Positions 4,083 to 31,033 of a DNA stretch of 47,754 bases are shown here, in pieces (the stretch's first letter is position 1; each line of letters opens with the position of its first letter). The notes below the pieces were generated by a model, which did no database searches, was not told the origin of the DNA, and worked only from the letters and a program-made list of their open reading frames with translations. The stretch covers positions 42,125-89,878 of the forward strand of contig FN648075.1 of assembly GCA_000310025.1 (NCBI GenBank), given 5' to 3'. Source of the DNA: Ectocarpus siliculosus (Eukaryota > Sar > Phaeophyceae > Ectocarpales > Ectocarpaceae). Both the position numbers and the translations under genes were made by a program.

Positions 4083-4130
4083 GACATCTAAAGACGGCTC
4101 TCCCCCCCCCGGGGGGCAGGGCCCGCACCC

Positions 4131-4812: not shown

Positions 4813-4830
4813 TCCTAAACCAGCAGCTGG

Positions 4831-10454: not shown

Positions 10455-10459
10455 GGTGG
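10455..10459. other. Target-site duplication, left copy (GGTGG)
   Basis: The pentamer GGTGG immediately precedes the left terminal inverted repeat. The same pentamer immediately follows the right terminal repeat at 31029-31033. A 5-bp duplication is what a cut-and-join insertion would leave. Confidence 0.8.
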
Positions 10460-11009
10460 ACCTACCTTCAGAGAGGCAGCACACACACACATACTTCCTC
10501 CAAAATTTCCGTGAAACAATGGACGCGAGTCTCCTTATTGCCCCCCGCCGTCACAACAACCATCACCAAGAACACAGGGAGGGATCTTCCACCGTGGTTG
10601 ACGGTTCGTCCATAATCGCCGACTTTTTTTGTCGTCCTACTTTTAAATGCTGCGACAACACTACAAAAAGAGAAACTACTATGCCGCCGCCACGGCTCTC
10701 CCGCGGCCCGAGTACCGGTGGTGCTACGCCGAGCAGGTGGACCAGGCCGCTCCCCTGCCCGACAGGAGCAACGGCTGGCGCTACCTGGGCCCTCGGGAGG
10801 GAGAGACCTACAGGCGCCAGGCGGTCTTCGGGGCCGGGTTCCGCCTCCGCCTGCCGTTCCCCCGCCTCTGCCCGGGGCCGGGGCACCGCTGGTTCAACTC
10901 GCACCCGCTCGGCGGGGATCCCGACCTCCCGGACTTCCAGGCCTGGGCGAGGACGATGCTGCGCAGGCGCCTGGTGCACAGAGACGACGCCGACGCCTGG
11001 CGGGCGGCC
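10460..11009 (+). repeat. Left terminal inverted repeat (550 bp)
   Basis: It starts ACCTACCTTCAGAGAGGCAG and continues through a CA microsatellite. It includes the promoter-proximal region and the first 121 codons of the replicase-like ORF, ending at GCGGGCGGCC, after which the arms diverge (11010 T versus the complement of 30478). All predicted peptides from the three compared frames agree between the arms over this length. Confidence 0.92.
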
Positions 11010-14000
11010 TTCGTCGACGTAGAGGGCGGCGGACACGGACAGCTCGTCGTCTCCGCCGCCGACGAGACCTGGCGAGTGATACTCTGCTGGGGATCACGGG
11101 GCCGAAGGATCGATGTGAACCAGCACGGCATCCCTACATCTCTCGTGGACCTGCAGGTTCGCGCCGGCGTCATATCGGAGGATCCGCGCTTCAGACAGCT
11201 CAATATCGCATCCTTCGGCCACCGACTCGTGAGGTACGATCCCCTTACCGAGTTTGGGGTTATTTGGAAGGAGCGCCTCCCGGGTGCCTGCCTGGCGGTC
11301 CTGGTCGCAGATTCGTGGCGAGACTGTCAGGTCGGTCTACTCGCACGCGATCGACGGAGATTTGGGTTCCGTGACGTAGACCCGCTGACGGGCGCCTTCA
11401 TGGATTCTCGTGCCGGCGGACGGTCGAAGAAGGGTGTCAAGCGTGCACCGCCGAACGCCCTGGATGGGGGAAACTATTTCCGCAACCTCTACTCGATAAT
11501 GCTCGAGAGGGACGTTGGTTCAACAGAGTTCTCGGCGTGGCTTTCGGGCGAGGAATGTGTACCGGCCGTTACTGTCCGCCATCTCGATAAGTGGCTCAAG
11601 ACCACCAAGGCGTCAGTCGTCGTGTGGTCGCACAGGGGCTCCGGGGCCGAGGTTGTCGGTGCCAAGGGCCAGACGACGAGCCTCCGTCCTCGAGCGCTAC
11701 ATGTCGGCGTTCGCGAGGGCCACGTGTACCGCTTGGTGCTCGATGGCCCTTGGAAGGATCGCTTCACCGGCGCTCGCGAGGGGGCGGTCGGTCCATCTCT
11801 GCATGTGGCGGTCGAGCACTGCGTGCGCACGAGGCGTCTCTTTCGCCGTATTGCCGAGGCGGCCGAGGAGGGGGAGGGAGAGGAGAAATCGGATGGTGAC
11901 ACCAGAGCCTTTGGTCGTTGCGCAGACATGACGGAGGCAATCCTTACCTCGAGCCAGACGGATACGGACCAGCAGACCGCTCGTAAGCGGCGGAGAGGAA
12001 CCGACGACAAGGCAGACAGCAAAAAGACCTGGTACGCACCTCCCGGTACGGCTTTGGACGAGCTCATGCTCCATCTCCACCTCGGTGGCGTGGCTTGTGC
12101 GGGCAGGCTCACCAGCTACAGCCACTGGGATTCGTTGTCTTTGCCGGCGCACGGTATCATCATTCGAACCTGGTGCGGCGCGAGCATGGGCGGACTGGAT
12201 CCGGATTCACTCGAATGCGACGAAGCTACTCGTCTGATCGAGCTGCACGGCACGCTGGGGCGCAAGCTCATTCGTGGTGTGATGGATTTTCGGGTCTCGA
12301 GTGAGTACAGCCCGTCTCTTCTCGCGCTACTCGAGGTGTGTTGGAGGGGACCTATCGTGGGGGCAGAAGACGCATCGGGCACAACCTACGGACCAGGAGA
12401 TTGGCAGTGCGACATCAACGGCGCGCACACGGCGGCAATGCTGAGCATGGAGAATCTTCCGGCGTTCACCCACATGGACGAGGTGCAGGTATTCGACGGC
12501 CACGACATCGAGGATTGGACGTTGTACGTCGTCCGCCTGGAAGCGGTTGGCGATCCCGACGTGTTCCTGAATGCGGACGTAACGCCAGTCTTTGGTCGGA
12601 ACTACAAGCGCTATTTGGCGCTAATTAAAACCCCCGCCCCACACCGGGTAAGCCACTTTGTGCGACCTGCGAGGACGATCCAAAAGTGCCACATACCCAG
12701 GCTCGTGCAGGACCTGCTGGCCCGGGATCTAGGGGAGCCCCTCCTCCAAGACCCGGACGCTGCTCGCAGGTTCAAGAAGGGTCTATTCGTTCGCACGAGC
12801 GGCTTGTTACAGCAGAGGCACGCCGACAGGATCAACGCCGTAATGGTCACTACAAGCAAGGAGGCCATGGCCGTGGGGGGTAAGATCGTACCCGTCCTCG
12901 GCGAAGTTAATCGCATCAAGTCGGAGCTGCGGAAGAATGGTACCGATGGGGGGCTTGGCATCGAGAAACTCGACAGCGGAGATGCCTACCTTTGTTTCGA
13001 GGCTAGCCGGGTTTGGTACCGAGACGGGTTCTGGGCGCTGGGGACGCTCATCCTAGACGAAACGCGCCTGCGTGTGTTGGAGGTGCGGAACATGCTCGAG
13101 GCGTGTGGGGGTTCTGCCTTTAGCTACCAGTGCGACGCCGTGTTCTTCAGAGGACCTCCAGAGGTCCAAGAGGAAGCAAGGCACCTCTACGAGCATTGTT
13201 TCAGCGGCGAACTCAAAGCGCCCGGCACTCTCAAGTTCGAACCAGCCCTCAAAAATGCAGCGTCTCCCGATCGCGTCTTCGCTGGCATCGAGGTGAAGTT
13301 GGCCCTCGACATTCTACCCCCAGCCATGAGGACCATTCCCTGCCCGCGGGAGAGAGCGCTGCGTGTCGTCCCACTATGGGGCGGCATCGGGGAGACCTTC
13401 GGTACCATGGAAGCCGCGCATGCAGCCTGGCGATCTGTCGGCAAGGACGACAAAAGGAAGATATGGCCGGACATCTGCGCGGCGGAGTCGCCAGCAACTC
13501 TTGAGCGACTACTCCGCGAGCTGGTGTCGCAGGAGGACAGGGTCGTTTGTGCGGTCACGGGGGAACACGGTGGAGCAGGGAAAAGCTACTGCGCGCTCCG
13601 TGCTGCGAAAGCCGTCTTCAAGACCGGTCTTGTGCTGACACCCACCAACAGCCTTCGCACGTCGTACACCGACCTGCCCTCCGGGTGGAGCGTGAAGACT
13701 GCCGACCATCAGCTTGGGTTTTTCATCGGCGACGACGCGCGCGTCAGGAAGACCGCGGGCTCGATACATATCCCGAGGGTGGACGTTGTAATAATCGAGG
13801 AAGCCGCGTACATGTCTCTCCATGCGCTCAGCATGATCTTCGCCGCCACTCACAGCAGCGGTGTCCACGTCATCGGAACGTATGACACGCACCAGCTGCA
13901 GCCCGTTCGTGAGAGCAGTGGCATGTCTATCAGCGTTGACAACGTCGACAGGCAACTCGTTCTCGAGCGAGCATTTCCCACCTGCTTTCACCTGTTCGCA

Positions 14001-14999
14001 CGCAAGCGGGACAGGACGATCGACGAACAGGTCGAGATGGACGATAGTTTGTTGTACATCTTGGACGCGGGAGACAACAGCGCCGAAGCGCAGACCCGAG
14101 CCCTGGAAAGGTTTGGCGGGATCGAACCCACAGGGCCCGGCACACACGTTTCCGATTTCCACCTCGCTTATACCAGGGAATGTGCGAGGTTCCATGCCTT
14201 CCGGGGTTTGACGAGGTGCAACGAGGCTGGGGGGTGGGACGCGCTGGGTCAAAGCGCGGTGGTGGGTGCCCAGTATCGAGACCTCGGGAAGACAGGAAAG
14301 GTGCACAAGAACCACGCCTACCACATCGTTCGTTCGTCGGCCGACTCGGTCGTCGTGCAAAGTGCCTTCGACGACGGCGCCACCCTCGAAGAGACCACTC
14401 TCAGTCGTGCCGCGGCAGAGATCCTGTTTGATCCCCCGGGTTCGTGTACGGTGCACGCGGTTCAGGGTCGCACAGTGGAAGGGAAATTGGTGATCCACCA
14501 GGCTCGACACCGGTATTCAGACGTTTACTGGCTTTACACAGCCATCAGCCGAGCGACGGGGCCCTCAAACGCCGTAGTCCTCGATGACGTCCATCGGAGT
14601 GTCAGCGACATGCCTGAACACACCAGGAGGTCGTGGGCGACCACAAAGGTCTCGAGCTACCTGCGCGCCGATGTGGCCGCCGGGCGGCTAGATGACGGGG
14701 ACGGGGGGCATCACAAGGACGCCCTTATCGAAGAACTCTTGCGCTCCTACCGTGGGACATGCAACTCATGCTCGCTTGAGGTCGTCTGGGCAGTGTACAG
14801 CGAGCGTCAGCCCACGCTTGATCGTCTCGACTACGCCCTACCCCACACGCCGGGCAACGTTGACGTAAAGTGTTTGAGGTGCAACCGTGCCCGAGGTGGT
14901 TTGGGAAGGGGGCTTACAAAGAAGAAGAAGGAAGCAGAAACAAAGTGTCAGAGAAGTAGCCGTTGTTGTCGAAATGGTGGTTTATTTTGTATGGCATGA
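10647..14999 (+). CDS. Replicase-like fusion: PolB-like palm, SF1 helicase, HNH
   Basis: This is an intronless 1450-codon ORF. The ATG at 10647 is fixed by an in-frame TAA directly before it. Residues 1-580 are unrecognised. Residues about 585-835 resemble a family-B polymerase palm: motif-A-like DINGAHTAAML near 589, a motif-B-like RRFKKGLFVRTSGL near 708, and motif-C-like YQCDAVFF near 827 with a single Asp instead of DTD. Residues about 970-1310 are a Pif1/RecD-type superfamily 1 helicase: Walker A GEHGGAGKS near 972, Walker B VDVVIIEEA near 1045, motif III GTYDTHQLQPV near 1077, motif V TVHAVQGRT near 1268 and motif VI YTAISRA near 1296. Residues about 1368-1420 hold CNSC...LDRLDY...PGNVDVKCLRCNRARGG, an HNH/endonuclease VII-like zinc fold. 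It probably replicates the element. The helicase call is firm and the polymerase call is tentative. The first 121 codons lie inside the TIR. Confidence 0.85.
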   Translation: MLRQHYKKRNYYAAATALPRPEYRWCYAEQVDQAAPLPDRSNGWRYLGPREGETYRRQAVFGAGFRLRLPFPRLCPGPGHRWFNSHPLGGDPDLPDFQAWARTMLRRRLVHRDDADAWRAAFVDVEGGGHGQLVVSAADETWRVILCWGSRGRRIDVNQHGIPTSLVDLQVRAGVISEDPRFRQLNIASFGHRLVRYDPLTEFGVIWKERLPGACLAVLVADSWRDCQVGLLARDRRRFGFRDVDPLTGAFMDSRAGGRSKKGVKRAPPNALDGGNYFRNLYSIMLERDVGSTEFSAWLSGEECVPAVTVRHLDKWLKTTKASVVVWSHRGSGAEVVGAKGQTTSLRPRALHVGVREGHVYRLVLDGPWKDRFTGAREGAVGPSLHVAVEHCVRTRRLFRRIAEAAEEGEGEEKSDGDTRAFGRCADMTEAILTSSQTDTDQQTARKRRRGTDDKADSKKTWYAPPGTALDELMLHLHLGGVACAGRLTSYSHWDSLSLPAHGIIIRTWCGASMGGLDPDSLECDEATRLIELHGTLGRKLIRGVMDFRVSSEYSPSLLALLEVCWRGPIVGAEDASGTTYGPGDWQCDINGAHTAAMLSMENLPAFTHMDEVQVFDGHDIEDWTLYVVRLEAVGDPDVFLNADVTPVFGRNYKRYLALIKTPAPHRVSHFVRPARTIQKCHIPRLVQDLLARDLGEPLLQDPDAARRFKKGLFVRTSGLLQQRHADRINAVMVTTSKEAMAVGGKIVPVLGEVNRIKSELRKNGTDGGLGIEKLDSGDAYLCFEASRVWYRDGFWALGTLILDETRLRVLEVRNMLEACGGSAFSYQCDAVFFRGPPEVQEEARHLYEHCFSGELKAPGTLKFEPALKNAASPDRVFAGIEVKLALDILPPAMRTIPCPRERALRVVPLWGGIGETFGTMEAAHAAWRSVGKDDKRKIWPDICAAESPATLERLLRELVSQEDRVVCAVTGEHGGAGKSYCALRAAKAVFKTGLVLTPTNSLRTSYTDLPSGWSVKTADHQLGFFIGDDARVRKTAGSIHIPRVDVVIIEEAAYMSLHALSMIFAATHSSGVHVIGTYDTHQLQPVRESSGMSISVDNVDRQLVLERAFPTCFHLFARKRDRTIDEQVEMDDSLLYILDAGDNSAEAQTRALERFGGIEPTGPGTHVSDFHLAYTRECARFHAFRGLTRCNEAGGWDALGQSAVVGAQYRDLGKTGKVHKNHAYHIVRSSADSVVVQSAFDDGATLEETTLSRAAAEILFDPPGSCTVHAVQGRTVEGKLVIHQARHRYSDVYWLYTAISRATGPSNAVVLDDVHRSVSDMPEHTRRSWATTKVSSYLRADVAAGRLDDGDGGHHKDALIEELLRSYRGTCNSCSLEVVWAVYSERQPTLDRLDYALPHTPGNVDVKCLRCNRARGGLGRGLTKKKKEAETKCQRSSRCCRNGGLFCMA

Positions 15000-15028
15000 A
15001 GTAGGCAGAGCAAGTGTATTTTCCCAAG

Positions 15029-16087
15029 ATGGACCAAACTATTGTGACGTGTTCGAGATGGCTGGAAGAAAACGAGGATCCAGACGAAGTCGTTGAAGCA
15101 TTGAGAAAATTACACCCGAGATCTCTGAATAAGAATGTGAGAAAGGTCAGGCTACAGTGGATGGACACATATGGCGCAAACCACAATGCCGGTCCCGTCA
15201 GGAACGAGCTCCGGTCGTTGCAAAGGCTCATCAAGAGGGAGGCAATGGTGGCGAAGAAGACTAAGGGACAACGGAATCACCTCAAGCAGCTCAAAACGGC
15301 CGAGGAGCGCGTGTTGATGTTTGCCAAGCTAGACCTTCGCGCCAAATGGTCGGCACGACGCAAGGTATACTCTCGGAAGGACTCCTTTACCGGGCTGGCC
15401 GAAGTCGACGAACATCTCCGTAAATTGCAACTGCTTCCACATTTTGTTTCTCGGCTCGAGCTTACGCCGGAAGAAAAGAGCCTCCCACGAAAAAAACGTA
15501 GGGAAGCTCTGGACGCCAAATGTGAGCGCGGGGTTGTGGTAAACGCAACCGAGTTAATCGATTTGATGTCATCGATCGTCAAATACCCGCGTGCAAACTA
15601 CTTCGAACTTGTGTGTGCATTGTCTTTCATGTCCGGTCGTGGTTTACCGGAAATCCTTGGGGCGGCCGAATTCTCGCCGCGCGAGGGGAACCCTCATGTA
15701 GCTGTCGTCTCTACTGGCGCGGTTGAGACTGTAGTTCCTATTCTGTGTGAGTTCGAAGAATTTTTCGAAGGTTTAGAGAGGATCCGAGGCATCAAAGACA
15801 CAGCTCATCTAACTGCCGCGGAGATTAACCAACGATTCAGCAAATCGGCCAATGTTTGGGTCAGGAAAATGTTACCAGTGAATGGAGACGATCGGCACAC
15901 GTTCAGTGACTTGAAAGTCATGCACGCTGTAATTTCCTTCAAAGTGTTCGAAGGACACGGCCTTGGTTTCGGGGAATGGGTGAGGGTGGCATGCGGGCAG
16001 AGTTCGCCGGCGCTCCAAAAGAAGAGTGCTACGGTGGTCGTTGAGGGGGTCGATGGCCGGCTCCACAGAGCGTGGGTTGTTGCTTGA
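15029..16087 (+). CDS. Telomere resolvase (protelomerase)-like protein
   Basis: This ORF of 352 codons starts at the ATG at 15029, 30 bp after the replicase stop, and is intronless. Residues 1-150 are highly basic and helical. The central and C-terminal part follows the telomere-resolvase catalytic layout: YFELVCALSFMSGRGLPEIL then GAAEF (Arg 204 at the first catalytic Arg position), a beta segment, VPILCEFEEFFEGLERIRGI, an LTAAEIN turn, then HTFSDLKVMHAV and CGQSSPALQKKSAT. In active enzymes the last two blocks supply Arg, His and Tyr. Here they read Lys 296, Gln 324 and no Tyr. The fold match is by eye. The protein may be a degenerate or repurposed resolvase, or use other residues. A divergent tyrosine recombinase is the alternative. 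Family enzymes cut palindromic ends to make covalently closed hairpins. Confidence 0.6.
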   Translation: MDQTIVTCSRWLEENEDPDEVVEALRKLHPRSLNKNVRKVRLQWMDTYGANHNAGPVRNELRSLQRLIKREAMVAKKTKGQRNHLKQLKTAEERVLMFAKLDLRAKWSARRKVYSRKDSFTGLAEVDEHLRKLQLLPHFVSRLELTPEEKSLPRKKRREALDAKCERGVVVNATELIDLMSSIVKYPRANYFELVCALSFMSGRGLPEILGAAEFSPREGNPHVAVVSTGAVETVVPILCEFEEFFEGLERIRGIKDTAHLTAAEINQRFSKSANVWVRKMLPVNGDDRHTFSDLKVMHAVISFKVFEGHGLGFGEWVRVACGQSSPALQKKSATVVVEGVDGRLHRAWVVA

Positions 16088-16571
16088 GTGAAAACTTAAG
16101 TTGCATCGACAATCTATGTAGGTAACACACATCCCTAGTTGGCTCCAGCCTTCTCGGGTCTGAGTTCCTCGGGCAGAACCACACGCGCAAACCCGTTCTC
16201 TCCCTGGGTCTAGAGACTCGATCAACGGAATATCGCATATGGAATGATTCAACGCCACACAACCAGGCACACGTCTATCCACCCCCTTCCCTGAGGCGGG
16301 ATGGAAACATGTACGCTGTCTGTCTGACACACCGCCGACAATCTCGCCGGTCGCACTGCCAACCGCTTCCAGTCAAGAGAAGTTTGTCAGTGAAGTACCA
16401 CCCGAGACATTTTTCTCCCCTGAGTGAGGCAAAGCCCATTGATGTGAGCGACGACGAACTCGCACATGTCCTGACATCAAATCCACCCAAGCCTGCAAAC
16501 TCCATCCAACACCACTCGGCTACCAAGAAAACACAATCTCTTCTCTCACACGTATATACCCCAAACCTAAC
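16088..16571. other. Convergent intergenic gap in the element
   Basis: This 484-bp interval separates the 3' ends of the resolvase-like ORF (plus) and the USP-containing gene (minus). It should hold both transcript ends. I see no further ORF with family resemblance and no strong inverted repeat. Confidence 0.5.
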
Positions 16572-19266
16572 CTACGTCGAGGCGGCACACCGGGCGTATG
16601 TCTGGAGGTCCCCCTCGAACAACCGGTTGCTCTCGCCGAGGCCCATGAACCCCGAGAGGTCCTTGCCAGAGGCGTCGGAGGGGTATGAGAGGTTCCTCTC
16701 TTTGCCGTTCGTGTCGAACTGTTTAAGTCCGAAGATGTCCTTGCCTCCGTTGATCCCTCTGACGTCCTTGTACGCGAACCACTTCGATTCCGATCTACGC
16801 CTGGCCGACGTACGGACAGTCCCATCTTCCTTCACGTAAGACCGGTGACGGGACGAAACGATCAGGGTACGATACGCGTTGATGTCGACGTACGTCTTGG
16901 CCGCTGCACCCGGGCCGCGTGACCCACCGCTGGAATGCATCTTCTTGCCCTGCATCTTTTTTCCTGTTGGGCGGCATGCATCGGCAGAAACGACAACAGC
17001 AACAGCAACGGCGGAAGGGGGCACGGAAGGAGAGAGGGGGGGGGGGGGAGTGATATCATCAGAAAGTCCAATTTTTGTCGTGTGCATGACCTTGGTCCTA
17101 CTTGACAACCCCCGCGAGCGATCTCTGCCCATCTTTCAACCTCGGGGCGGAGGGGGGAGGGGCCTTTGGGCGGAGTGGCGATCTCGCAAAGGTTGGCGCC
17201 GACACAAGGCAATGCTATCCAAAAAGGGGCCATCCGAGATCGATTTTAAACAACAGAGGCAGAAGCGAGCGACGAAAGCCGTAACCCCAACATCGGAGGC
17301 AGCCAGCGACCGGCATCGGCAGAAACGACGACAGCAACAGCAACAGCAGCAGCAGCAGCATGCGACAACAACAACAACGGACAACGAGAGCAACAGCAAT
17401 GACGGGCAAGGTCACACAGCCTCACCGGCTGCCGCCTTGCCCTTCTGCGTCCCCTTGGACGTGCCACCCCCTGGCAGGGCCGCGCCCTCGGCGTAGTCGG
17501 CCTTGCCTGCTTGCAGGGGACGCGGGCGATATATGACGTCGGCGGGGACGGAGATCGAATAGGGCGGCGATAACAACACCGTTAAAATGCCGGTGCTTTG
17601 AGTTGTACCGGGGGCACCTACCGGCACATCAACTTTTAACACCCCGCGAGCGATCTCTGCCCATCTTTCAACCTCGGGGCGGAGGGGGGAGGGGCAGGCG
17701 GGCCGGATGGCGACGGAAGGCAAACGATCGGCGCCGACACAAAGCAATGCTATCGCGGTGGCCATGCAAGGTCGAAGGCACGAAACGAATGGCAAAAGAA
17801 GTACAAGAAAAAACGTCGTCACAGCCGACAAGAAAAAAACAACCACGAACAACAACGGAGGCCACAACAACAACCGACGTTCTCTGTCACCCTTCAAAGA
17901 CGCTCCCCCGCTCGTGATCTTGACGGCTCCGGAGGTGTCTCGAGAAACCAGCTTCCCGTCTCTCACCCAAGCGGTGTCCGCTGCGAAAGACCAGGCCATA
18001 ACATGTTGGTGCGGGGGCGAGCGAGCGAGCGAGCGAGGGACGCGGCAGGGGTGTCACCCCGGCGAAGCAAGATGATCATCGACTGCGGTTGCACGTTCGA
18101 CAGACAGAGGCGCCTTGTTTCTGTCGGTGCAAACAGGCCCCAGCTCGGCACCATTGGGTCAAGGAGCAGGCCCGCCGGCACATCTACCTAACGTTTCGAG
18201 CTCTCGCTGCCATCGGAAACGACGAGGCCTTGGTCCTACTTGACAACCCCCGCGAGCGATCTCTGCCCATCTTTCAACCTCGGGGCGGAGGGGGGAGGGG
18301 CAGGTGGGCCGGATGGCGATCTCGCAAAGGTTGGCGCCGACACGATGCACTCCTATCCAAAGGGGCCACCCGAGATCGATCTTACACAACAACACTTAAA
18401 ACAGCTCACCCCCGCTGGCGCTGTCTGCAGACCGCCGGCGCATCGCCGCTTCCTCGGCGGGCGTCGCCGCCTCCCTGCCCTGCCACACACCCTCACGGAC
18501 TGTGACCTTTTGCCCATTGACGGTGGCCGTCCTCGCTATAAAAAAACGTGGTGCATTCAAGCACGGTGACGGAATGTTTGTTTGTGAAGGAATGGGGCAA
18601 GGGGGGAGAGGGGGGGAATTGATATCAGGGAGTCCAATCTCTCGTGTACATGACCTTGGTCCTACTTGACAACCCCCGCGAGCGATCTCTGCCCATCTTT
18701 CAACCTCGGGGCGGAGGGGGGAGGGGCAGGTGGGCCGGATGGCGATCTCGCAAAGGTTGGCGCCGACACGATGCACTCCTATCCAAAGGGGCCATGCAAG
18801 ATCGATTGTCGGCGATTACAAGACGTAAGCAGCAGCGAGCGACGAAAGCCGCAACTTACCCCCTGCCGCGCAGTCGTCCTGGAACTTCTTCGGGTCCTGC
18901 TTCCGCTTCTTCATCGAAGCCTCCCCTAAAACAACACGTCGGTCAAGATGCGAGAGGGACAGCCGAGTGGGGGTGGACGGGCAGGCACGCGGGTGGAGGG
19001 ATCGCCGTAGACGAGGCAAACGAGGGGGTCTGCCGATAACACTGCAAGCAGGCTCCACCTCGGCATATTGGGACGATGAATAGCACCGATACATCTACCC
19101 AACATTCGCGAGCTCTCGCTGTCGGTACTTTTAACGTTGAGTACGACAGGAACAGCCGCGGCAACAGCGAAATGACAACGACAAAAACAGCCCTCACCGC
19201 CTTCGGCCTTCAGCTCGACCGTTGACTTTTCCGCGCCCCGCTCCTCCGCGGTGTACTTTGCCGCAC
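16572..19266 (-). CDS. Seven short 3' exons separated by introner-like introns
   Basis: The exons are 19266-19198, 18925-18860, 18535-18410, 18120-18058, 17980-17891, 17617-17426 and 16963-16572. Each begins by completing a split codon and, until the last, ends one base into a codon, so all introns are phase 1 with a G just before the donor. The peptides are basic and mixed: KKRKQDPKKF; VNGQKVTVREGVWQGREAAT; SISVPADVIYRPRP. The last exon has VDINAYRTLIVSSRHRSYVK and DIFGLKQFDTNGKERN, ending in CAAST. I recognise no family. The C-terminal exon reads as a globular domain with alternating aromatic and charged residues. Confidence 0.7.
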
Positions 19267-22200
19267 CTGTAGGGAGAAGGTGACGGAATATGCACGGGGA
19301 TGGGAGGTGGGGTGGGGATGGGAGGTGGGGTCGAGGGTGACAAGGGGGCAAGAGGGGAGAGAGGGGGGAGGGGAAGGAGTGATACCAGAGAGTCCAATCT
19401 CTCGTGTATGAAGCCTTGGTCCTACTAGACAACCCCCGCGAGCTTTCGTTGCCAGCTGTTAAAGTCGGGCCAGAGGGGGCCGGGGCTTTTGGGCGGAGTG
19501 GCGACGTGGAGCAACACGAAGCGATTCTATAGCAGTGGTCATCCGGGATCTTTTGTCGTCGATGATATCAAGCTCACCGAAGAGCAGCACCAACACAGAA
19601 AAAAACGAAAACAAGAAGCAACACCAAGGAGGTGTAACGTCAACAAAATAATACCATTATCTTTAGAGACAGACGGCGGCGTGTGTTCAATACGGAAGAG
19701 GAACAAGCAACAACAGCAAGAGGAAAGTTTACTTTGTTCCTCACCACCGTCAGATCTCTGCTGCGTCGTGAACAAAGCGGGGCCCAGCCGTGTGCGAATT
19801 GCGTTGAACGCTTCCTCGAAAACCTCGTCGTTCTCCTCCACGCCCGCTCGGAGAGCCTCCTTCTCGCCGTCGAACGCCGCGGCCCCCTTTTGGGGCGCGA
19901 CGAAGTCCTGGGCGCCAACCAGCGCATCTACGGCTTCAGCCACCGCAGACCTTCGGCGCTCCCCCCCCAGGTCTTCTAGTGTCCGGCAACCCTCGCGGTC
20001 ACGGGCGGCGTGGTGAAGGAGGCAGAGCCCCGCGAAGTTGCTCGTTGCGGCGGGCAGGCCACCCGGGATGGTGCAGATGTGGTGCGAGGCGAACATCCCG
20101 ACCTTGTCGTCCCTGCCAGACCACACGACGCCGTGCCGTGCGGCGCCTTGGTCGCACACCTCGCCAAAGCTGAGAACCATCAGAGCGTGGACGTTCGGGA
20201 AGCGATTGATGAGCAACGTGCAGGTGAGGTCCAGAAAAGTCCGGCTGAGCTCCCTCACACGCGGCGGCATGGTCTTGCTGTCGAAGCAGTTGCCCCCGCG
20301 GTCATGGACACTGCGAGAGCAGCTGTTGTTCTTGTTGAGGGCGGCGATAGCACCACCCGCGTCGCCGCCGAAGGGAGACGCTTTCACAGCAGCGCGCCAC
20401 AGCTTGCCGGTCAGTAGGGGGCAGTCCGGGTCGTAAAAAGGTGACTCGGCGTACTTGGGGCACGCCCCCCATCCGACAAGGAGCGGCTCCGTCCGTCCGG
20501 CGTTGTTGGCGAACGCCGGGTGGGTGGTGTCAATGTGGATCGACACGTCGATCTCGCCGCATACCCCCAAGAACGCGACAACGTCTCCAGCTTTCGCCGC
20601 GACCCGGAGACGCCGGAGTCCCTCCTCGGCCCTTCTTCGCTCCGTCGATTCGGGCCCGTCCAGGACGGCCGCCATGTCACCCACGGGGCCGCGTGTCTGG
20701 CTGGCGGCGGCGAGGATATTCCTGATGGTGGCCGGCCCGAGATCAGAACCCGACGTCGCACCCCCTCTGTAGATCCGGCAGCCATTGGATGCGTGTTTCG
20801 CCGACAGGAGGCCGGCGCCGCCGTCCTTCAGGAGAGCGCGGCACAGCCCAAGTTGTTGGGGCGACGCCTCGGTGCTGAGGCGCAGGAACTTCTGCACCTC
20901 CTCCGGCGTACCGGCCAGCTCCTGTAGGGCTCCGGCTATGGGCTGGACCCGGCGGAGGTGGAGAGAGGGATACAAGGATGGTGGTTAGCAATGTCGTCCG
21001 GGAGCGAAACGTCGGTGTTTGTGGGGGGTGGGGTTGGGGATCGAAGGCGCGCGAGGTGATCCTCGGGAGATGCACACGCGTTACGGTAGGCACCAACGGA
21101 TTTCATGGACCTGTTGTCCTCTTACGTTCTGCCCTCTCGCTACACACCACATATTCAGCCACGCGGCGGGCCTCGCAACATTAGTCAGCACGAGCGCACA
21201 ACGACGTTTCGATAGTGGCGTCCACACCGCCTCGGCGGGAACAGAAATTCTACCTACGAGGCAGGCAGGCCATCGGCGAAAATCGACTGTGTGCACCCAC
21301 TATCTCAAGGCCAAACCAAGACGAAGCTGGGACAGCTGGGAGCGACGCAACGTGTCTAGGACGCTGTAGGGCACGGGGGGCAAAGTAGACTTGCAGGCCT
21401 CACTAACCTCGACCGCCCGCTGACGCTTCTTGTTCTGCGGCACGGGCTGCACGGGCTGGTTTGGGGGTCCCAACGCATCGTTGCTGCTGGGTACCTGTAG
21501 ACATGTCATGGGTGTGGCGGACAAGTACATGAGATCAGCTGCTTCTCTACTGCCGGGGGCGGGGGAGGGGGGTATGGGCATTTTTGGCGGGAAATTTAAG
21601 CGGATTCGCGCCTCGGCAAACTCGAGAAGATTTCCGCAACAGGCATAGGAACAGCGGATGAACGAATAGACACGGGTCGCCTCCTAACTTGTCACCAGAA
21701 AGGAGACACCCGGAAAACAATCGTCTTGACGTGGTTGTGGTCGTGTGTAAACAAATTAAAATTACCTTGCCCTTGTGACGTCGAAGATCATCGGCCTCGT
21801 AGCTGCTGCTGCCGCTGCCACCGCTGCTGCCGCCGCCGCTGCTGCTCCTACTCCTGCTCCTGCTCCTGCTGCGGCTGCTGCTCCTGCTCCTGCTGCCGCC
21901 GCTGCCGCTGCCGCTGCAGCTGCTGCTGCCGTCTCCGTCCGTCTCGCCGCTGCTGCTGCCGTCGTCGTCCGTCTCGCTGCTGCCATCGCCGCTAACGCCG
22001 CCGGGTGCCTGGGCAGGGTTTGACACAGAACGATTCAGAACACAACAAACCGGTCGGGGAGGACGGCAGCGACGGCACATGGGAGTAACTCGTTGTGTCC
22101 TCGCGTCTAATTCGAGTGCACGCAACCCCTGCTGTCCAAGTCGAAGGGTAACGTCACCTGGTAGGTGCTGGAGACAATGTTGGACTTGAGGACACACCAA

Positions 22201-25200
22201 GGGTGGCTTTATCATGAATTTTTGCTTGTTTCGTCGGGAAGACCACCCCCGGCAAACACGGAACGAGGTGCGCTTGGCTATTGGCGCGCGGGCCCACCCT
22301 AAAACTTAGTTCTCACCTGGCCTCCTGACCCCGAAGCCTGCCCTCTGGCGGCAGCGACCGCCGCGCTCCAGAACGCGGGAACATCGGTGCCGTGGGTCGC
22401 TGCGGCTCCGCCTCCGTGCTGCCTCTCGAGGACCATGATCGTCGGGTTGACCTTGCGCACGTCGCGCCACGAGACCTGACCGGGCGGGGTTGTGTTGTGT
22501 TGTGTTGTCGGAGTGTCGGAGTGTCGGAGTGGTGGCGGACGACGCTCCCTTTCTACCTTTCTCTGTTCTACACGCACAGACCAAAATGCATAACTTGCCC
22601 ACCACCCCCACACACAGTTGTTTCGCAGTAGCACGACGAGCCGCGGTTTCGGGGGTCGGCGCCGCTGCAGGATCAACTCTATAAAAGCTTCGGTTTTGTC
22701 CCCACCTCGGTGGTGTCCGCATCGTCAGCGCACACCCACGTGTCGTTTCGCCCCGCCACGAACGCCTTGTAGTGGCCCGCGTTGAGACTGGGTCCGATGT
22801 GCACCCCGATCCTGATTCGAGTTCGTGACACGGCGCGTTCCGTGAGTCCACTTTTTTTCACATCGAACTATACCCCTACATAAGTACAATGTTATACAGC
22901 GGAATGCCTGCATTCGCTGCAGGGGTGGGGGGTGGGAGGTCGGTCGAACGAACCCCCGCCTCCCCCTTCCCATTTCCCGACCCCTTTTTTCTTGTGATGA
23001 TATGCCACCAACTCACCCCCGGACGTCATAGCGCTGCGTTCGCGTGGTTCCGGAAGCGCTCCGCAAGAGGAGCGAAGCCACCCGATCAAACTGGACCGCT
23101 CGGCCGTCCTTGCCGCCGTGGCCCCCGGTGCCGTCTATCCACCCCGTTCGGTTGATCATCACCACCAATGTTGCAGGCGCCTGGGTGGATGTCGGGGTCG
23201 CGGAACGACGCGGCGGCGAGAGAAGGGCGATGGGTCATAAGGGTGAAACAAGGAAATACGTTCTTGGGGGCAGGGGGCATTTCGTCGTTGAGCGTTATTC
23301 TCTCTGCATTGTTGGCGTCTGGATTGCCGCTCGGGCTGTACACATGTACCGAGCTCAGCGCAGACACGCGGACGAGACCTGCACGCCCGCGCAGTAGTCA
23401 TGCACATGAAGATATACAGGTGTACGAGCCACAAGCCCGCACCACGCCAAAACAGTTTCAGCCGCAGCGCGGCGCCAGCAGCGGCCATCGATCTGATATG
23501 ATTTTTCGCGGTTTTTCTTCGCGTGCCACCACACATTCGAATACTCGCAACGTCGTCGATGGCTCGCAGTGGCCGGTTGTCTACGACTATGCCGACGGCC
23601 TCTCTCGTACATATGATACCTCACTGATCAACGTGACTTGCTGCGACGACGTGAGCTGCGAACATCTGGCACAGTGCGCGTCAGACATCTCCCGGGGCGC
23701 CGTCGAATCGTCGAGCAGCCCCTGAAGGGTGATCGTGGAGTCGCTGCTCTCGTCGGGGAGAGCCAGCATCAGGTGGTGCGTCTTCAGGCTCCCGTCTCCC
23801 ACCGAGTGCACCAAGCCGCACGAGGAGCATTGTGCCTGCGCGTTTGAGCACCAATTTGACGACTCGTTCAACTACGGCCGTGCGGGTCCCCGCTTCCGAG
23901 CCCAGAGGTTTGCTCTGCTCGCATACGGTCGTGACTCGCGTGTGTGTGCTGCCCCGTATACACGCGCGCTGCTGGGTTGTTGGAGCCAACTCATAAATGA
24001 CTACAGCAGCTAAAAGAATACGCCTGAAGAAAAACAAAGGGACTCATATTTAGAGGACACCGAAAGCACGACCCCGCTCTCTAGGTTCGACCCTCCCCCC
24101 CCCTCTCTCGCAAGGTCTGCGCGATCGGGTGCTTCTTTTAACAAACTCACGTTAGTTGACGTCGTCATGGTCGTGGCTGCCAGAGGGGGGGGCAGCGGGG
24201 TCTCCGTCGCAGTCGCCTGGGACTGAAGCAGCTCCCAGATTTTGAAGAACGCCTCGCCTAGGTCTTGCTGTTCGTTTTATGCAAACCGCGGGCACAGCGA
24301 GGGGTGCAAGGGATGGGGGTGGGGACGCGTCACTCAGACCCGATGGAGCACCGCCACCGGGCATCATGGCTTCACCTAAACATCGCGACATATTGGCGCT
24401 CGGTTCAGCGCCATCCACTTTTACATAGGCAAAGGACAGGGTCGAGGCTCAACACGACTTGCCTGCTCCCAAGCCTTGAACCCCGCCGGCTTCAGGATTC
24501 CGTTCGCCCCAACGAAACCAGCGTGGATTGAGGGCGTGCATGGCTCCGCCGAGGTCACCTGCGGACGGGATTCTTGTCGCTTAGGATAAATCTTCACCGA
24601 TGGGGACACCAAGTGGACGTTACTCCACCCGCACCATCACTCCTACTATCCAGCATGAATGGAGCACGCGTGCATTAAAGTGTTTTTTTACGTCCAGCCA
24701 CGGTTGCCTCGGAGAAATAAAAAAGATAGGCAGACAGTGGAGCAAACTCGTTTGCCTATTCACACAATATACTCGCATTGTGCGAAATGTAGCCGTACCT
24801 TCCCAGTGGCGTCGACCATCTGCCAGAGTGCCGAGAGCCCCTCCTTCATGGCGTCGTCCCAATCGCACCGGGACTGTCGTTGAGCAGGGCACGTGGAGGC
24901 ACATGGGCAGCAGAGGGGCCGAGATCGCCGAACGAATCTGGCCAACCAGGCTCTCCTCGGCCGCGATATATACTAACCCTTTTAGCAAGAGGCTGCCCAC
25001 AGGGCGACCTCGCTATTTCTCGCATCACGTCGAACCTAGCGCGTTGGGTTGAACGTTCGTGCGTTCGCTCGTGCTCGACGAGCCCTCCAGCGGTTGGAGC
25101 TACAACTTTTGTCTCTGAACAACCGGGACACGACAAACTTACCAGCTCCATCAGCATCCTGCCGAGGGTCGTGCGCGGGCTGGACGCGACCTGGATGAGG

Positions 25201-26706
25201 GTGTTCAGCCAACAGGTCGAACCGCCGTTCGTGAGCCCATGTCTCGCCGGCACCTATGTGGGCCCAAAACAAAGGAAAGTAGGCGAAACAGGCAAACAAC
25301 GGAATAACCAATCGACGCCACGCGGAGTCAAGAAACGTTGTTTGCGCGACCAACCACATGATGGGGGTGTAAGCTGGCATGGTTGACGAGCGAGACCCAT
25401 CCATGGGGACGTGCGTGTTTGTGTTCTTGAGTAACATCCACGCCACCTCTACAAAAAAATGCACACCTGAGGAGGTACCCGCAAAGGTCAAACTCGACCA
25501 AGGGGGAGCGTGTGTGTGTGTGTGTGTGTGCGTGTTGTCAGGAGAACGACACCCGGTCGAAGTACAAACACACAACAGCGGTGCGGCGGATACCATACCT
25601 TATCGAATAATGCGGTGCTCACATGTTCACCACTCGCCCCGCGGCTGGAGGAGGAGCCCTGGCTGGCCGAGGCTTCCGCTGCGCCCCCGGAGGATGCATT
25701 CTCGTTGCTTCGCGCATCCCTCCTGCTCTCCGCCAACACCCGAGCGAGCTCTTCCTGCCGCGCAGCCTGGGGGGCGCATCGAACCAACAACGGGGAAGAT
25801 AGTTTGGTGCACGAGCAACAAGAGATGAAGAACGCGGCCTTTGAACGAACGGTAGACAGCCGTAGTTTGGTCTCTTGCGCAACGAGATAGTCCCCGACGG
25901 ACACGGAGACTCGGCCTCGAGTACTAGCACTCATCTTGGCCGTACTAACCATCCCTTCCACAACGGCGCACGCGCAAGCGCAACATTCAAGAAAGAGACA
26001 CTCGGGCTTCGCGCCGTGGTAGTATACATGGCGGCGTGTTCCCTGGTCGATTCGAACTAAATACGAGTACCTCTTCGGCGGCTCGGCCCTGGATCGGACC
26101 GGCTGGCTGCCCGACGGCCACGTGCATGTCGTCGTCGTCGTCGTCGTCTACGCCGCCCGTGTCCGGGTAGATGTAGTCGTCGTCACGCGTGTTCCCGGGG
26201 GCGGACTCGGGCGAGGCCGAGTCGTCATCTGGAGGCGGCGGGGGGGGGGGGTGAGGGAGTGGGGTTGAGGGAGCAAGGAACACAAGCATCACTACAGCGC
26301 GAGACATGGAGTGCATGATTAGGACTTCTGTCCACGGTGAGACTTCTCTGCCTCCCTTCATCTCCCTTGTGTTGTGATTGCACATAACAGTTAAGCTAGC
26401 CTTTAGCTTGCCAAAGCCCACGGGCGGCCAGCACTCATTTGCGGGGTATCTGTCGAAAATATCGACCCCTGTGCCTGTAAGCTAAACGGGAAGGTGACAC
26501 GTGCCAGCATTTGGCCACACGTGCTGGAAACACTCTGACCCTCTGCGTGTCGTACCCTCGATGACCGCCAAAACTCAAAACAAACCAGACCCTCTCCTCT
26601 CTCACCGGTGCGAGTTCCCGCCGGCCCGGTGCCGTCCTGATCGTGGGCTCCCTGGTCGTCAACGGGGGGCGAAGAGCCACGACGGGTGTAGAATGCCAGA
26701 ATAAAA

Positions 26707-26750
<44 letters not shown>

Positions 26751-28711: not shown

Positions 28712-28747
<36 letters not shown>

Positions 28748-29084
28748 CAACAACAAAAATTAATGTTCAATTTGCATCTCGGTCTCTCTCTCTCTCTCTC
28801 TCTCTCTCCGCAACAACAAAAGCATGAACAACCATACGCAGCACTGCTGTGCAGCCTGTGTTATGCAGCCTGAGATACTCGAATGACCAGGACTCCTGTC
28901 ACCTCCCGTCTGCCTACGAGATAGCTCCCACCCTGCAACATCAAAAAAACCCTGCAAGACGCGGTGGCAAGAGGAGCTTTTTTTTCGCGCAACAGAGAAG
29001 AGTCCGCAGGTCTTCTCGCTTACCTCTCGACGCAGTGAACGCAGAGGCCGGAGGCACGCTTCAGTCCGGAGGTGATGTACTATC
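16572..29084 (-). CDS. Multi-exon gene with ubiquitin-specific protease domain
   Basis: A chain of exons runs through the element on the minus strand and ends at the TAG at 16574-16572. Exons placed by splice sites and phase: 27146-26906, 26651-26606, 26228-26071, 25766-25599, 25253-25143, 24873-24799, 24558-24463, 24267-24151, 23835-23620, 23090-23017, 22811-22706, 22475-22317, 22008-21766, 21494-21408, 20921-19745, 19266-19198, 18925-18860, 18535-18410, 18120-18058, 17980-17891, 17617-17426 and 16963-16572. Every junction listed from 26906 downstream is phase-consistent except one unresolved stretch between 23620 and 23090. Two probable upstream exons, 29084-29024 and 28629-28540, are in keeping but not linked to the rest. 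The product would be a deubiquitinase with acidic, Ser/Arg-rich and unrecognised C-terminal parts. It may be a captured host gene. The start codon was not identified. Confidence 0.75.
17020..17282 (-). repeat. Introner-like repeat copy A
   Basis: It occupies most of the intron between exons 17617-17426 and 16963-16572. The core (plus strand) runs from GATATCATC-AGAAAGTCCAA through ACTTGACAACCCCCGCGAGC, CTTTCAACCTCGGGGCGGAG and GGTTGGCGCCGACAC to AAGCCGTAA. On the transcribed strand it ends in a pyrimidine-rich stretch that can act as the acceptor tract. The same unit recurs in four other introns of this gene. Confidence 0.85.
17636..17755 (-). repeat. Introner-like repeat copy B (shortened)
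   Basis: It lies in the intron between exons 17980-17891 and 17617-17426. It shares CCCGCGAGCGATCTCTGCCC, CTTTCAACCTCGGGGCGGAG and GGCGCCGACAC with the other copies, and it is truncated at the acceptor side, where it runs almost into the exon. Confidence 0.8.
18178..18385 (-). repeat. Introner-like repeat copy C
   Basis: It lies in the intron between exons 18535-18410 and 18120-18058. The core at 18226-18385 matches copies A and D closely (CCTTGGTCCTACTTGACAAC, AAAGGTTGGCGCCGACACGA). It has an additional left segment, 18178-18216, containing ACATCTACC and GAGCTCTCGCTG. A similar left segment occurs at 19079-19125 in the intron between exons 19266-19198 and 18925-18860, so that intron may hold a remnant. 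Confidence 0.85.
18590..18852 (-). repeat. Introner-like repeat copy D
   Basis: It fills nearly all of the intron between exons 18925-18860 and 18535-18410. It is nearly identical to copy C over CCTTGGTCCTACTTGACAAC through TCCTATCCAAAGGGGCCA, and it shares the GCAGCGAGCGACGAAAGCC end with copy A. Confidence 0.88.
19340..19545 (-). repeat. Introner-like repeat copy E (diverged)
   Basis: It lies in the intron between exons 20921-19745 and 19266-19198. It keeps GAGTCCAATCTCTCGTGTA, CCTTGGTCCTACTAGACAAC and CCCCCGCGAGC, but the second half (GCGGAGTGGCGA onward) is diverged. This makes it the oldest-looking copy. Confidence 0.75.
19745..20921 (-). CDS. Large 392-codon exon of the USP gene, unknown domain
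   Basis: This long exon has acceptor CCTACAG and donor GTGAGG. It is continuous with the USP exons in phase 0 and with the introner-bearing exons in phase 1. The predicted segment has the look of a folded domain: LRLSTEASPQQLGLCRALL, then CGEIDVSIHIDTTHPAF, then GMFASHHICTIPGGL and FAGLCLLHHAARDREGCR, followed by a charged tail. Several His, Cys and Asp positions could be catalytic or metal-binding, but I do not recognise a family. The open frame continues past the donor to 19539, which I read as intron. Confidence 0.65.
21408..22008 (-). CDS. Ser/Arg-rich and basic linker exons of the USP gene
   Basis: The exon 22008-21766 (81 codons) is a Ser/Gly/Arg/Asp repeat with several Arg-Ser dipeptides, ending in a basic LRRHKGK. 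Its DNA is a long CTG/CCG-like microsatellite on the plus strand. The exon 21494-21408 (29 codons) contains NKKRQR, a possible nuclear localisation signal. Both are phase 0 at each end and continue directly to the large exon at 20921. RS-rich linkers are typical of nuclear proteins. I infer nuclear location with low certainty. Confidence 0.6.
22317..25253 (-). CDS. USP catalytic domain (deubiquitinase), exons of the same gene
   Basis: USP boxes appear in family order across eight exons. The Cys box GLTNGGSTCWLNTLIQ (nucleophile Cys) is in 25253-25143. The QQD box is split by an intron, WEQ at the end of 24558-24463 and QDLGEAFFKIWELL in 24267-24151. The zinc-binding CSSC and CARC pairs around LQGLLDDSTAPREM are in 23835-23620. 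The approach to the His box, QRYDVRG, is in 23090-23017. The His box IGVHIGPSLNAGHYKAFV with ADDADTTE is in 22811-22706. The closing strand VNPTIMVLERQ is in 22475-22317. The family cleaves ubiquitin from substrates. The segment between LISE (23620) and FDRVA (23090) was not resolved. A GC donor is used after 24463. Confidence 0.85.
25599..27146 (-). CDS. N-terminal low-complexity exons of the USP gene
   Basis: Four exons lie here. 27146-26906 encodes a Ser/Pro-rich then mixed segment ending GGGESVQ. 26651-26606 is short and Gly/Asp-rich. 26228-26071 is very acidic, with a run of seven Asp and DDDYIYPDTGG. 25766-25599 is Ala/Ser/Arg-rich and ends STALFDK. Phases are 0, 1, 0, 0 at the successive donors and match their acceptors. 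The last exon splices in phase 0 to the USP Cys-box exon, giving FDK followed by VPARHGL, the usual entry into a USP domain. Acidic disordered N-termini are common in USPs. Confidence 0.65.
26714..26749. repeat. GA microsatellite
   Basis: A run of about 18 GA dinucleotides lies within an intron of the USP-containing gene. On the transcribed strand it reads CT-rich and lies about 60 bp upstream of the acceptor at 26652, where it may serve as the pyrimidine tract. Confidence 0.85.
28540..29084 (-). CDS. Probable 5' exons of the USP-containing gene
   Basis: Two exon-like segments lie here. The first, 29084-29024, has acceptor ACACAG and donor GTAAGC and encodes IVHHLRTEACLRPLRSLRRE. The second, 28629-28540, has acceptor CAGTAG and donor GTGGGG and encodes IKAEGATVHRIARVDASGNL plus HRYLRLSQGK. 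They join in phase 0. No family was recognised. The following 1.4 kb down to 27146 was not resolved into exons, so linkage to the rest of the gene is inferred from strand and position only. The intron between them contains the CT-rich tandem duplication at 28692-28820. Confidence 0.45.
28692..28820. repeat. Tandem duplication with CT microsatellite
   Basis: Two adjacent copies of about 65 bp each contain TTAATGTTCAATTTGCATCT, then a long CT run, then CCGCAACAACAAAA. The CT runs differ in length (about 27 versus 25 bases). The duplication lies in the USP gene's upstream intron region. Confidence 0.85.
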
Positions 29085-30478
29085 CTGTGTCCCACGGGTG
29101 GTGCTGTCGCGGTGTCTCTTGTCGTTGAGCAATCCTCCGACCGCCCAGGCACACCAATTCTGCGGCGGCGCCAGAAACTCGAGATAGTAGATACGTAGCA
29201 CAGGCGCTGTACATATTTTTTTTTTATTTTTCTTAATATTTTCTGGCCCCAAAAACATCGGACCGGGTGTACCGGATTTTGGCCACTCCTCAAAATCCAA
29301 CGACCCAGCAACCCCGAACACGGCCGAATCGCCGAATCAAGACCGAATTTCGCCGCCGTTTGGCAGGAAGGGAATCGAGTAAGCTGGACGTCGCCCCTCC
29401 AGCTCGTCCCGTGCTCACGCTATGGCCCAGCGTCATAGTCCGGCTGTGACCAAGAGGCTGAATGGTTCATTGTCGCCAGTAAAGCTGCCCTAGCCATACC
29501 CAAGCACCACGCGTGGAGGCATCAGCCATGTCTAATAATCTGCCGCCACCTCTCTGCTGTGTTCGTGGGCTTCTTGGAGTCACCACATGTCTGCAACACC
29601 GGCGGACTTGTCTACCCATCGCTCCCTAAACCACCAAGGAGGACTTGAAAGAACAGCCTCGGCGACCTGTCAGGTGCTTATGGATGCATGCGACGTGTAA
29701 ATGCGTGTGTGTGACGTGCAGAGGAATGTCGGCCGGAAGGACCCAGAACAGCAGTGCGCTACCTCTGCATAATAGACCACTTGCAATTGGACCCCCCGCA
29801 CCAAAAAAATGCCAAAAAAATGCTCTGGGCGGAGGGGCGCGGGGGGTCCGATTGCAAGTGGTCTGATTATGCAGAGGTAGCGCACTGACTGTGAAAAGTA
29901 GGAAGAGGCGATGTGTGTAAAAAAATAGCTTTCTTTACCTTGGAGCGCTTCTCTCTGGGTGCTCTTCCCTGTCCCGCTTCACGCAGAAAAGTTAACAGTA
30001 GGGTTCGATGTGCAGTCGCACCCTTTTGGCCATGCCAACAACAAGAAGATAGACGGTTCTTGCTCGGCCTGCCTGCATGTAGGTATACAGCAGTAGTCCT
30101 TTGGTGTGCAGTGGTGGTGATGATGCCACACAAACAAGATCCCCGATCCCAATCTACCCTTCCTTCCTTGTCGCGCGGAGGGTGCCGAGCGGCAGCCATA
30201 ATAATTATTTTAAGGGTTTTCCGCGAAGGATATCACAATAATAAGATTAAGATTACACGAAGGTCGATTGACGGGTCTCTGTCTCTCTATCTCTTGCTTA
30301 TTTAGTATTCAAAGTGGCAGCAACAAGTCATCAGCCGATGTCGACTCGCGACCGATCGTGGATGACGTTGCCGGTCGACCATCTTCGGGGGTGGCTGCCT
30401 GTTTTGAAATCCCGACGAAGTTTTTTTTTGCCAATAAGCTATCTATGTAACTGCGTGCCACGTATTAATCTCTTTCTC
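29085..30478. other. Right interior of the element, presumed promoter region
   Basis: This 1.4-kb stretch lies between the first probable exon of the minus-strand gene and the inner edge of the right TIR. It holds the short inverted-repeat element at 29752-29887 and no coding exon that I recognise. It is the natural place for the promoter and any 5' leader exons of the USP gene. No clear TATA box was assigned. Confidence 0.45.
29752..29887. mobile_element. 136-bp MITE-like hairpin nested in the element
   Basis: The arms CAGTGCGCTACCTCTGCATA... and its complement ...ATGCAGAGGTAGCGCACTG pair over roughly 47 bp with a few mismatches and enclose a short A-rich and G-rich loop. The structure is typical of a miniature inverted-repeat element. 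No clear target duplication is visible. It must be younger than, or carried within, the 20.57-kb element. Confidence 0.75.
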
Positions 30479-31028
30479 GGCCGCCCGCCAGGCGTCGGCG
30501 TCGTCTCTGTGCACCAGGCGCCTGCGCAGCATCGTCCTCGCCCAGGCCTGGAAGTCCGGGAGGTCGGGATCCCCGCCGAGCGGGTGCGAGTTGAACCAGC
30601 GGTGCCCCGGCCCCGGGCAGAGGCGGGGGAACGGCAGGCGGAGGCGGAACCCGGCCCCGAAGACCGCCTGGCGCCTGTAGGTCTCTCCCTCCCGAGGGCC
30701 CAGGTAGCGCCAGCCGTTGCTCCTGTCGGGCAGGGGAGCGGCCTGGTCCACCTGCTCGGCGTAGCACCACCGGTACTCGGGCCGCGGGAGAGCCGTGGCG
30801 GCGGCATAGTAGTTTCTCTTTTTGTAGTGTTGTCGCAGCATTTAAAAGTAGGACGACAAAAAAAGTCGGCGATTATGGACGAACCGTCAACCACGGTGGA
30901 AGATCCCTCCCTGTGTTCTTGGTGATGGTTGTTGTGACGGCGGGGGGCAATAAGGAGACTCGCGTCCATTGTTTCACGGAAATTTTGGAGGAAGTATGTG
31001 TGTGTGTGCTGCCTCTCTGAAGGTAGGT
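30479..31028 (-). repeat. Right terminal inverted repeat with truncated replicase start
   Basis: This is the reverse-complement twin of 10460-11009. It contains the first 121 codons of the replicase-like ORF on the minus strand (ATG at about 30841), after which the frame runs 11 codons into unrelated sequence and stops. It also duplicates the replicase promoter region, so it could drive an antisense or truncated transcript. Confidence 0.92.
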
Positions 31029-31033
31029 GGTGG
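31029..31033. other. Target-site duplication, right copy (GGTGG)
   Basis: GGTGG directly abuts the right TIR end (AGGTAGGT) and matches the pentamer before the left TIR. Confidence 0.8.

Follow-up and report, generated by a model that had tools for sequence, protein, structure and literature searches.

A 20.6-kb Ectocarpus element with 550-bp terminal inverted repeats, a helicase-HNH gene and a telomere-resolvase homologue without the catalytic residues

The stretch of Ectocarpus siliculosus DNA analyzed here (contig FN648075.1, positions 42,125 to 89,878 of the forward strand; 47,754 nucleotides in all, hereafter the window) contains a chromosomal element of ~20.6 kb, which had been delimited in a preliminary description made from the letters of the window without database searches. 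The element is bounded by long terminal inverted repeats (TIRs) and by two copies of the pentamer GGTGG, and it carries gene 1, the product of which combines a superfamily 1 (SF1) helicase with an HNH domain, gene 2, a homologue of telomere resolvases in which the catalytic residues are replaced, and a spliced gene for a ubiquitin-specific protease (USP). The positions of these and of the remaining features are collected in Table 1. Genes 1 and 2 both belong to multi-copy families, and the domain layout of gene 1 points to a possible kinship with polinton-like viruses and transpovirons.

Table 1. Features of the element, in window coordinates
Feature	Position	Strand	Basis or remark
Left GGTGG	10455..10459		Sequence; target-site duplication or attachment core
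Left TIR, 550 bp	10460..11009	+	100% identical to right arm
Gene 1, 1450 aa	10647..14999	+	SF1 helicase and HNH by profile; OTU-like pair by eye; polymerase-like motifs
Gene 1, polymerase-like motifs A/B/C	12399-12428, 12774-12803, 13125-13148	+	Motif strings only
Gene 1, SF1 helicase	13569-14474	+	Profiles
Gene 1, HNH	14817-14897	+	Endonuclease VII profile
Gene 2, 352 aa, homologue of telomere resolvases, catalytic residues lacking	15029..16087	+	Profiles, hhalign, Foldseek
Coding-like segment, 126 aa	16581..16958	-	Codon score; no Pfam match
153-nt repeat, four copies, 60-98% alike	17090..18806		Repeat search
Gene 3, long coding-like frame	19806..20984	-	Codon score second in the element after gene 1; no family match
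USP gene	22706..25253	-	Predicted exons, not from transcripts; core only, further 5' exons being possible
USP core exons	25253-25143, 24873-24799, 24558-24463, 24267-24151, 23835-23620, 23180-23017, 22811-22706	-	Predicted
Truncated second copy of gene 1 start (right TIR)	30443..30841	-	Open reading frame list
Right TIR, 550 bp	30479..31028	-	100% identical to left arm
Right GGTGG	31029..31033		Sequence

Termini of the element

A base-by-base string comparison of the two arms gives full identity over 550 nt (100% complementary), which bears out the sharp inverted arms of the preliminary description, and at the setting used they are the sole inverted pair of at least 40 nt in the window. The bases just beyond the two outer ends are G and G, which do not pair, so that the boundary of the element is sharp. 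As had also been claimed, GGTGG abuts both ends; the computed probability that two random flanking 5-mers would agree is 0.0013, and a chance origin of the pair is therefore unlikely. The repeat is either a target-site duplication (TSD) or the core of an attachment site, which cannot be told apart here because the two look alike at a single insertion.

Gene 1 begins inside the left TIR, which takes in its first 121 codons, and the right end therefore holds a shortened start of the same gene. By analogy with linear replicons, one end looks to have been copied from the other, and the lack of a single difference over 550 bp suggests that the arms are either recent or have been kept alike by copying or conversion. 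We also noticed by eye that AACTGCGTGCCAC, on the inner side of the right end (30431-30470), recurs in a short tandem repeat of the right flank (31903-32102).

Genes 1 and 2 and their families

Relatives of genes 1 and 2 were sought in a collection of 5.8 billion proteins, in which the candidates sharing most words with the query were scored. For gene 1, at least 23 relatives were obtained, in brown algae and Tribonema: 12 are from Ectocarpus sp. CCAP 1310/34, where they lie on twelve different contigs, three from Ectocarpus sp. 6 AP-2014, three from Tribonema minus (~41% identity), and one each from Pylaiella littoralis, Hapterophycus canaliculatus and E. siliculosus, with two more that carry no species name (best 91%). 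Gene 2 has at least 24 relatives, plus a fragment that the listing assigns to the window itself. At the protein level there are thus other copies, on the existence of which the preliminary description had made its proposal of a mobile element depend. Scans of a genome contig collection gave no relatives, the one match of 18 bases in a Bacteroidales metagenome-assembled genome being within chance.

In a tree of all 23 gene 1 relatives and the window protein (midpoint-rooted for drawing only), the CCAP 1310/34 copies are spread over several supported clades, of which one lies next to Hapterophycus and another next to Pylaiella, and Tribonema stands apart. Because of this scatter and of the separate position of Tribonema, gene 1 probably represents an old multi-copy mobile family. 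Four of the 23 gene 1 models (P0008, P0011, P0012 and P0022), which belong to three clades, continue into gene 2 sequence. In P0008, from Ectocarpus sp. CCAP 1310/34, gene 1 is followed by two gene 2 stretches (residues 1131-1268 and 1516-1672), as would be expected either of two tandem elements or of a duplication.

The domain content of gene 1 was assessed on an alignment of 20 members, comprising the window protein and 19 of the 23 relatives (all but P0008, P0017, P0022 and P0023). The window protein matches phrog_325, a Dda-like helicase, with an E-value of 4e-9, and AAA_30 with one of 1e-5 (score 25.9, slightly below the cut-off of 27), and each of the two profiles is found in 19/20 members. 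An endonuclease VII profile matches at residues 1357-1419 (E = 4.4e-4); across the family, endonuclease VII/HNH is found in 8 of the 20 members and other HNH families in up to 5. Of the polymerase/helicase/HNH fusion that had been proposed, the helicase and the HNH domain are accordingly supported by profiles. The polymerase-like strings are DINGAH from residue 589, KKGLFVRTSG from 710 and YQCDAVFF from 827, and an OTU-like pair, picked by eye and without profile support, is made up of NALDGGNYFRN at 270 and VREGHVYRLV at 355.

Telomere resolvases, or protelomerases, have been described in bacteria and bacteriophages; a likeness of gene 2 to these enzymes had been noted in the preliminary description. 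The protein matches PF16684 (ResT-TelK) with an E-value of 8.7e-5, below the family cut-off, and phrog_5272 with one of 3.9e-12; the family profile picks up ResT among the sequences of the PDB (E = 0.001), and the first eight Foldseek matches of the structure model of gene 2, itself a weak model, are all protelomerases (E = 0.004-0.09). Comparison of the family profile by hhalign with eight reference resolvases (six phage and two cyanobacterial sequences) gives 97.7% and an E-value of 1.3e-12. Gene 2 is thus homologous over 218 columns to the group that includes TelN, TelK, TelA and ResT and the resolvases of phaeoviruses and coccolithoviruses, from which it differs in length (352 aa vs 631 aa for TelN), in lacking the canonical catalytic residues, and in residing in an element where no telRL-like site was found.

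The catalytic residues of telomere resolvases are R275, K300, R383, H416 and Y425, all of which are invariant in the eight reference sequences. In our alignment of the window protein with 12 relatives (13 rows, to which further, mostly short relatives were not added), R275 is replaced by Gly or Ala in 13/13 rows, with the neighboring R274 retained in 12/13. There is no conserved Lys counterpart of K300, R383 is Lys in 10/11 rows and Arg in 1/11, and H416 is His in only 2/11. At the position of Y425, which was fixed by its constant spacing from the H416 site, the rows that have a residue there show Ser (6/11) or Cys (5/11) and in no case Tyr. The resemblance to telomere resolvases therefore stands as homology and does not extend to the catalytic residues. 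As nine of the 12 relatives have lengths of 355-373 aa, and identities are 51-89%, the loss of these residues appears to be a kept trait and not a sign of decay. Gene 2 is likely to encode an end-binding protein; a Ser or Cys nucleophile is possible, yet less likely than a binding role because the arginines have changed too.

These substitutions also bear on the alternative of a linear replicon in which, as in phage N15, hairpin telomeres are formed by an active resolvase, here the gene 2 protein employing a Ser/Cys nucleophile or some other chemistry. Phaeoviruses of the same hosts have a telomere resolvase together with a telRL-like site (PMC13236599; PMC2373305), and a telomere resolvase is predicted in coccolithoviruses (PMC10222054); the clear homology of gene 2, the strict occurrence of Ser or Cys at the tyrosine position and the palindrome that the joined TIR ends form by construction would all fit such a replicon. 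We nevertheless consider it very improbable, since the changes at R275, R383, H416 and Y425 run counter to canonical resolvase activity, since no telRL-like palindrome was found in the element or its TIR (best scores 8 and 5) by a script that returns the 56-bp N15 site with a score of 20, and since hairpin formation alone would leave the 5-bp repeat unexplained. A tblastn search with gene 2 against phage records gave no match, and among the matches listed from the open-licence literature searched there was no eukaryotic transposon-like element with a telomere resolvase.

The USP gene, other internal features and the flanks

The USP gene proposed in the preliminary description proved to be real once spliced. 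On the minus strand, the block GLTNGGSTCWLNTLIQ is found near 25238, and five exons with lengths divisible by three, of which four have GT donors and one a GC donor, are followed by one exon with a KDGRAVQF block and one with the His box GHYKAFV. The joined translation matches UCH with an E-value of 1.1e-16, above the family cut-off, and USP18 in the PDB with one of 1.6e-10. Among the 48 relative proteins fetched there was no match to either gene 3 or USP, which tells little because these proteins were fetched with genes 1 and 2. Shorter partial copies of the 153-nt repeat lie near 19354-19504, between genes 2 and 3.

Outside the element, the right flank (31034-40000) contains an ABC transporter gene on the minus strand (ABC_tran, E = 3e-13; ABC2_membrane_3, E = 3e-7), and no matching half of this gene turned up in the left flank on the same strand. 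Judged by eye, coding-like segments on the minus strand at 1911-4814 resemble what we take to be the RNase H and CCCH-finger part of a DIRS/Ngaro-like retroelement, a region in which the left-flank scan gave a zf_CCCH_4 match (E = 0.004), and further coding-like segments at 45986-46761, also on the minus strand, resemble a TauE/SafE-type membrane transporter.

Affinities and possible mode of propagation

According to the preliminary description, no known element has a matching gene set. For gene 1, however, the layout is the one described for Tlr1-like helicases, in which a variable N-terminus and a middle domain are followed by a vOTU domain, a palm lacking the first Asp of motif C, then an SF1 helicase and finally a GIY-YIG or HNH domain (PMC11071308; PMC12721341). 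In gene 1, the N-terminal region is followed in the same order by motifs resembling an OTU domain and a palm, by an SF1 helicase and, at the C-terminus, by HNH, which is a likeness to the published description, and the DTD pattern of motif C, with its first Asp, is absent from 17/17 gene 1 rows that have letters there. The match in domain layout is the deciding point for reading gene 1 as a putative replication protein of the Tlr1-like type, made up of an OTU-like region, a palm, an SF1 helicase and HNH. Helicases of this type (pPolB-S1H) occur in polinton-like viruses and transpovirons (PMC11071308). With transpovirons, the element shares the lack of a recognized capsid gene as well as long TIRs, of 550 nt here and 380-520 nt there (PMC7031253), and it differs from them in being chromosomal and ~20.6 kb in length, whereas transpovirons are linear episomes of ~7 kb associated with mimiviruses. 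Polinton-like viruses, for their part, differ in having capsid genes, and what sets the element apart from those described with Tlr1-like helicases is the presence of a telomere-resolvase homologue and a spliced USP gene.

Several observations weigh against this assignment. The polymerase of the proposed fusion comes down to motifs, as the profile tests failed: by hhalign, the region of gene 1 in question has a probability of ≤1% against both phi29/PRD1 and T4 polymerases, and Pfam scans of the 20 members gave neither a polymerase nor an OTU domain. The structure model of gene 1 is too poor to judge (predicted local distance difference test score of 42). The OTU Cys site is Tyr in 18/19 gene 1 rows, with the His present in 14/19, whereas both Cys and His are conserved in the Tlr1-like helicases analyzed in PMC11071308, such that the missing Cys and the unconfirmed polymerase are differences from known elements with these helicases. 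At the level of the whole element, no relatives were found among the viral contigs of IMG/VR, and six-frame Pfam scans of 16.1-30.5 kb gave no integrase, capsid, ATPase or DD(E/D) transposase, a result that spliced genes can escape.

The same six-frame scans produced just two rows, both weak and below cut-off (DUF6692, E = 0.03; TFIIA, E = 0.09). Because they had missed the spliced USP gene too, the absence of an integrase is not proven, and the preliminary claim that the element has no DDE transposase, Polinton integrase, capsid gene or packaging ATPase holds in the sense that none was recognized. The element could, in principle, be a complete integrated polinton-like virus, the capsid, ATPase and integrase genes of which are spliced or too divergent to be seen; its size, TIRs, 5-bp repeat and gene 1 layout would fit, and the real USP gene was itself hidden from Pfam until spliced. 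We regard this as distinctly unlikely, however, as an exon-chaining script that recovers 6/7 USP exons, five of which it had been trained on, yields just three exons, all weak, for 25.2-30.5 kb of the minus strand, and as neither gene 3 nor the exon-chain products compared with Pfam (five of six, the USP control included; product plus_16090_23000 was left out) gave a match below E 0.1, the control apart. A spliced integrase hidden in the element is likewise the less likely case.

That no integrase was found would also suit a giant non-autonomous DD(E/D) transposon, the ends of which are cut and pasted by a transposase from elsewhere and all genes of which are cargo, an origin that we hold to be unlikely. 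The element is comparable to the giant KDZ, EnSpm and Sola-1 transposons of Ectocarpus, which exceed 10 kb and carry extra genes in the same hosts, and several families of which carry only genes without transposase homology (PMC12477816). These transposons are defined, however, by DD(E/D) transposases, none of which was recognized here, and with a gene starting inside it, the 550-bp TIR looks more like a replication end. Moreover, since three clades retain the pair of genes 1 and 2 and the range of gene 1 extends to Tribonema, the two genes fit the core of an element better than its cargo. The "Unknown" row of the Ectocarpus transposable-element survey, with 94 entries amounting to 3.93% of the genome, is where the element may sit unnamed, and the main text of this survey makes no mention of a resolvase, Polinton, Maverick or Crypton (PMC12477816). 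Comparison can also be made with integrated phaeoviruses, which in Ectocarpus form endogenous viral elements that reach 407 kb and owe their insertion at CC to a tyrosine recombinase (PMC13236599); these share with our element the same kind of host and a telomere resolvase gene, whereas the element is 20.6 kb long and has 550-bp TIRs and a 5-bp repeat.

Taking all of these points into account, we give an even chance to the reading in which the element belongs with polinton-like viruses and transpovirons, as an integrated and capsid-less relative whose telomere-resolvase partner is disarmed. If the element is such a relative, the gene 1 protein would copy it as linear DNA, with copying beginning at the TIR ends, to which gene 2 would be bound as an architectural factor without cutting by tyrosine chemistry, and the USP would either process the large gene 1 protein or blunt host ubiquitin control. 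Insertion would take place through a 5-bp staggered cut, for which the integrase would either come in trans from another element or virus or be encoded by a gene of the element that we did not recognize. In its long TIRs and 5-bp repeat, the element resembles Polintons/Mavericks, which, like mavirus, have TSDs of 5-6 bp (PMC8547959), and it differs from them in that no integrase, capsid, ATPase or exonuclease-bearing pPolB was recognized.

A more far-reaching proposal, which we put forward tentatively and hold to be rather unlikely, is that the element represents a new class of eukaryotic mobile elements of long standing in brown and yellow-green algae. In this class, a resolvase would have swapped its tyrosine active site for end-binding (or for a Ser/Cys nucleophile) and been partnered with a Tlr1-like polymerase-helicase-HNH protein, and the element may be a satellite of phaeoviruses. 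If the even-chance reading given above is right, the element would add a capsid-less branch to the polinton-like world in a multicellular lineage, provide an example of a recombinase retained without its active site, and offer a host system for probing whether elements of this kind are linked to giant viruses as satellites.

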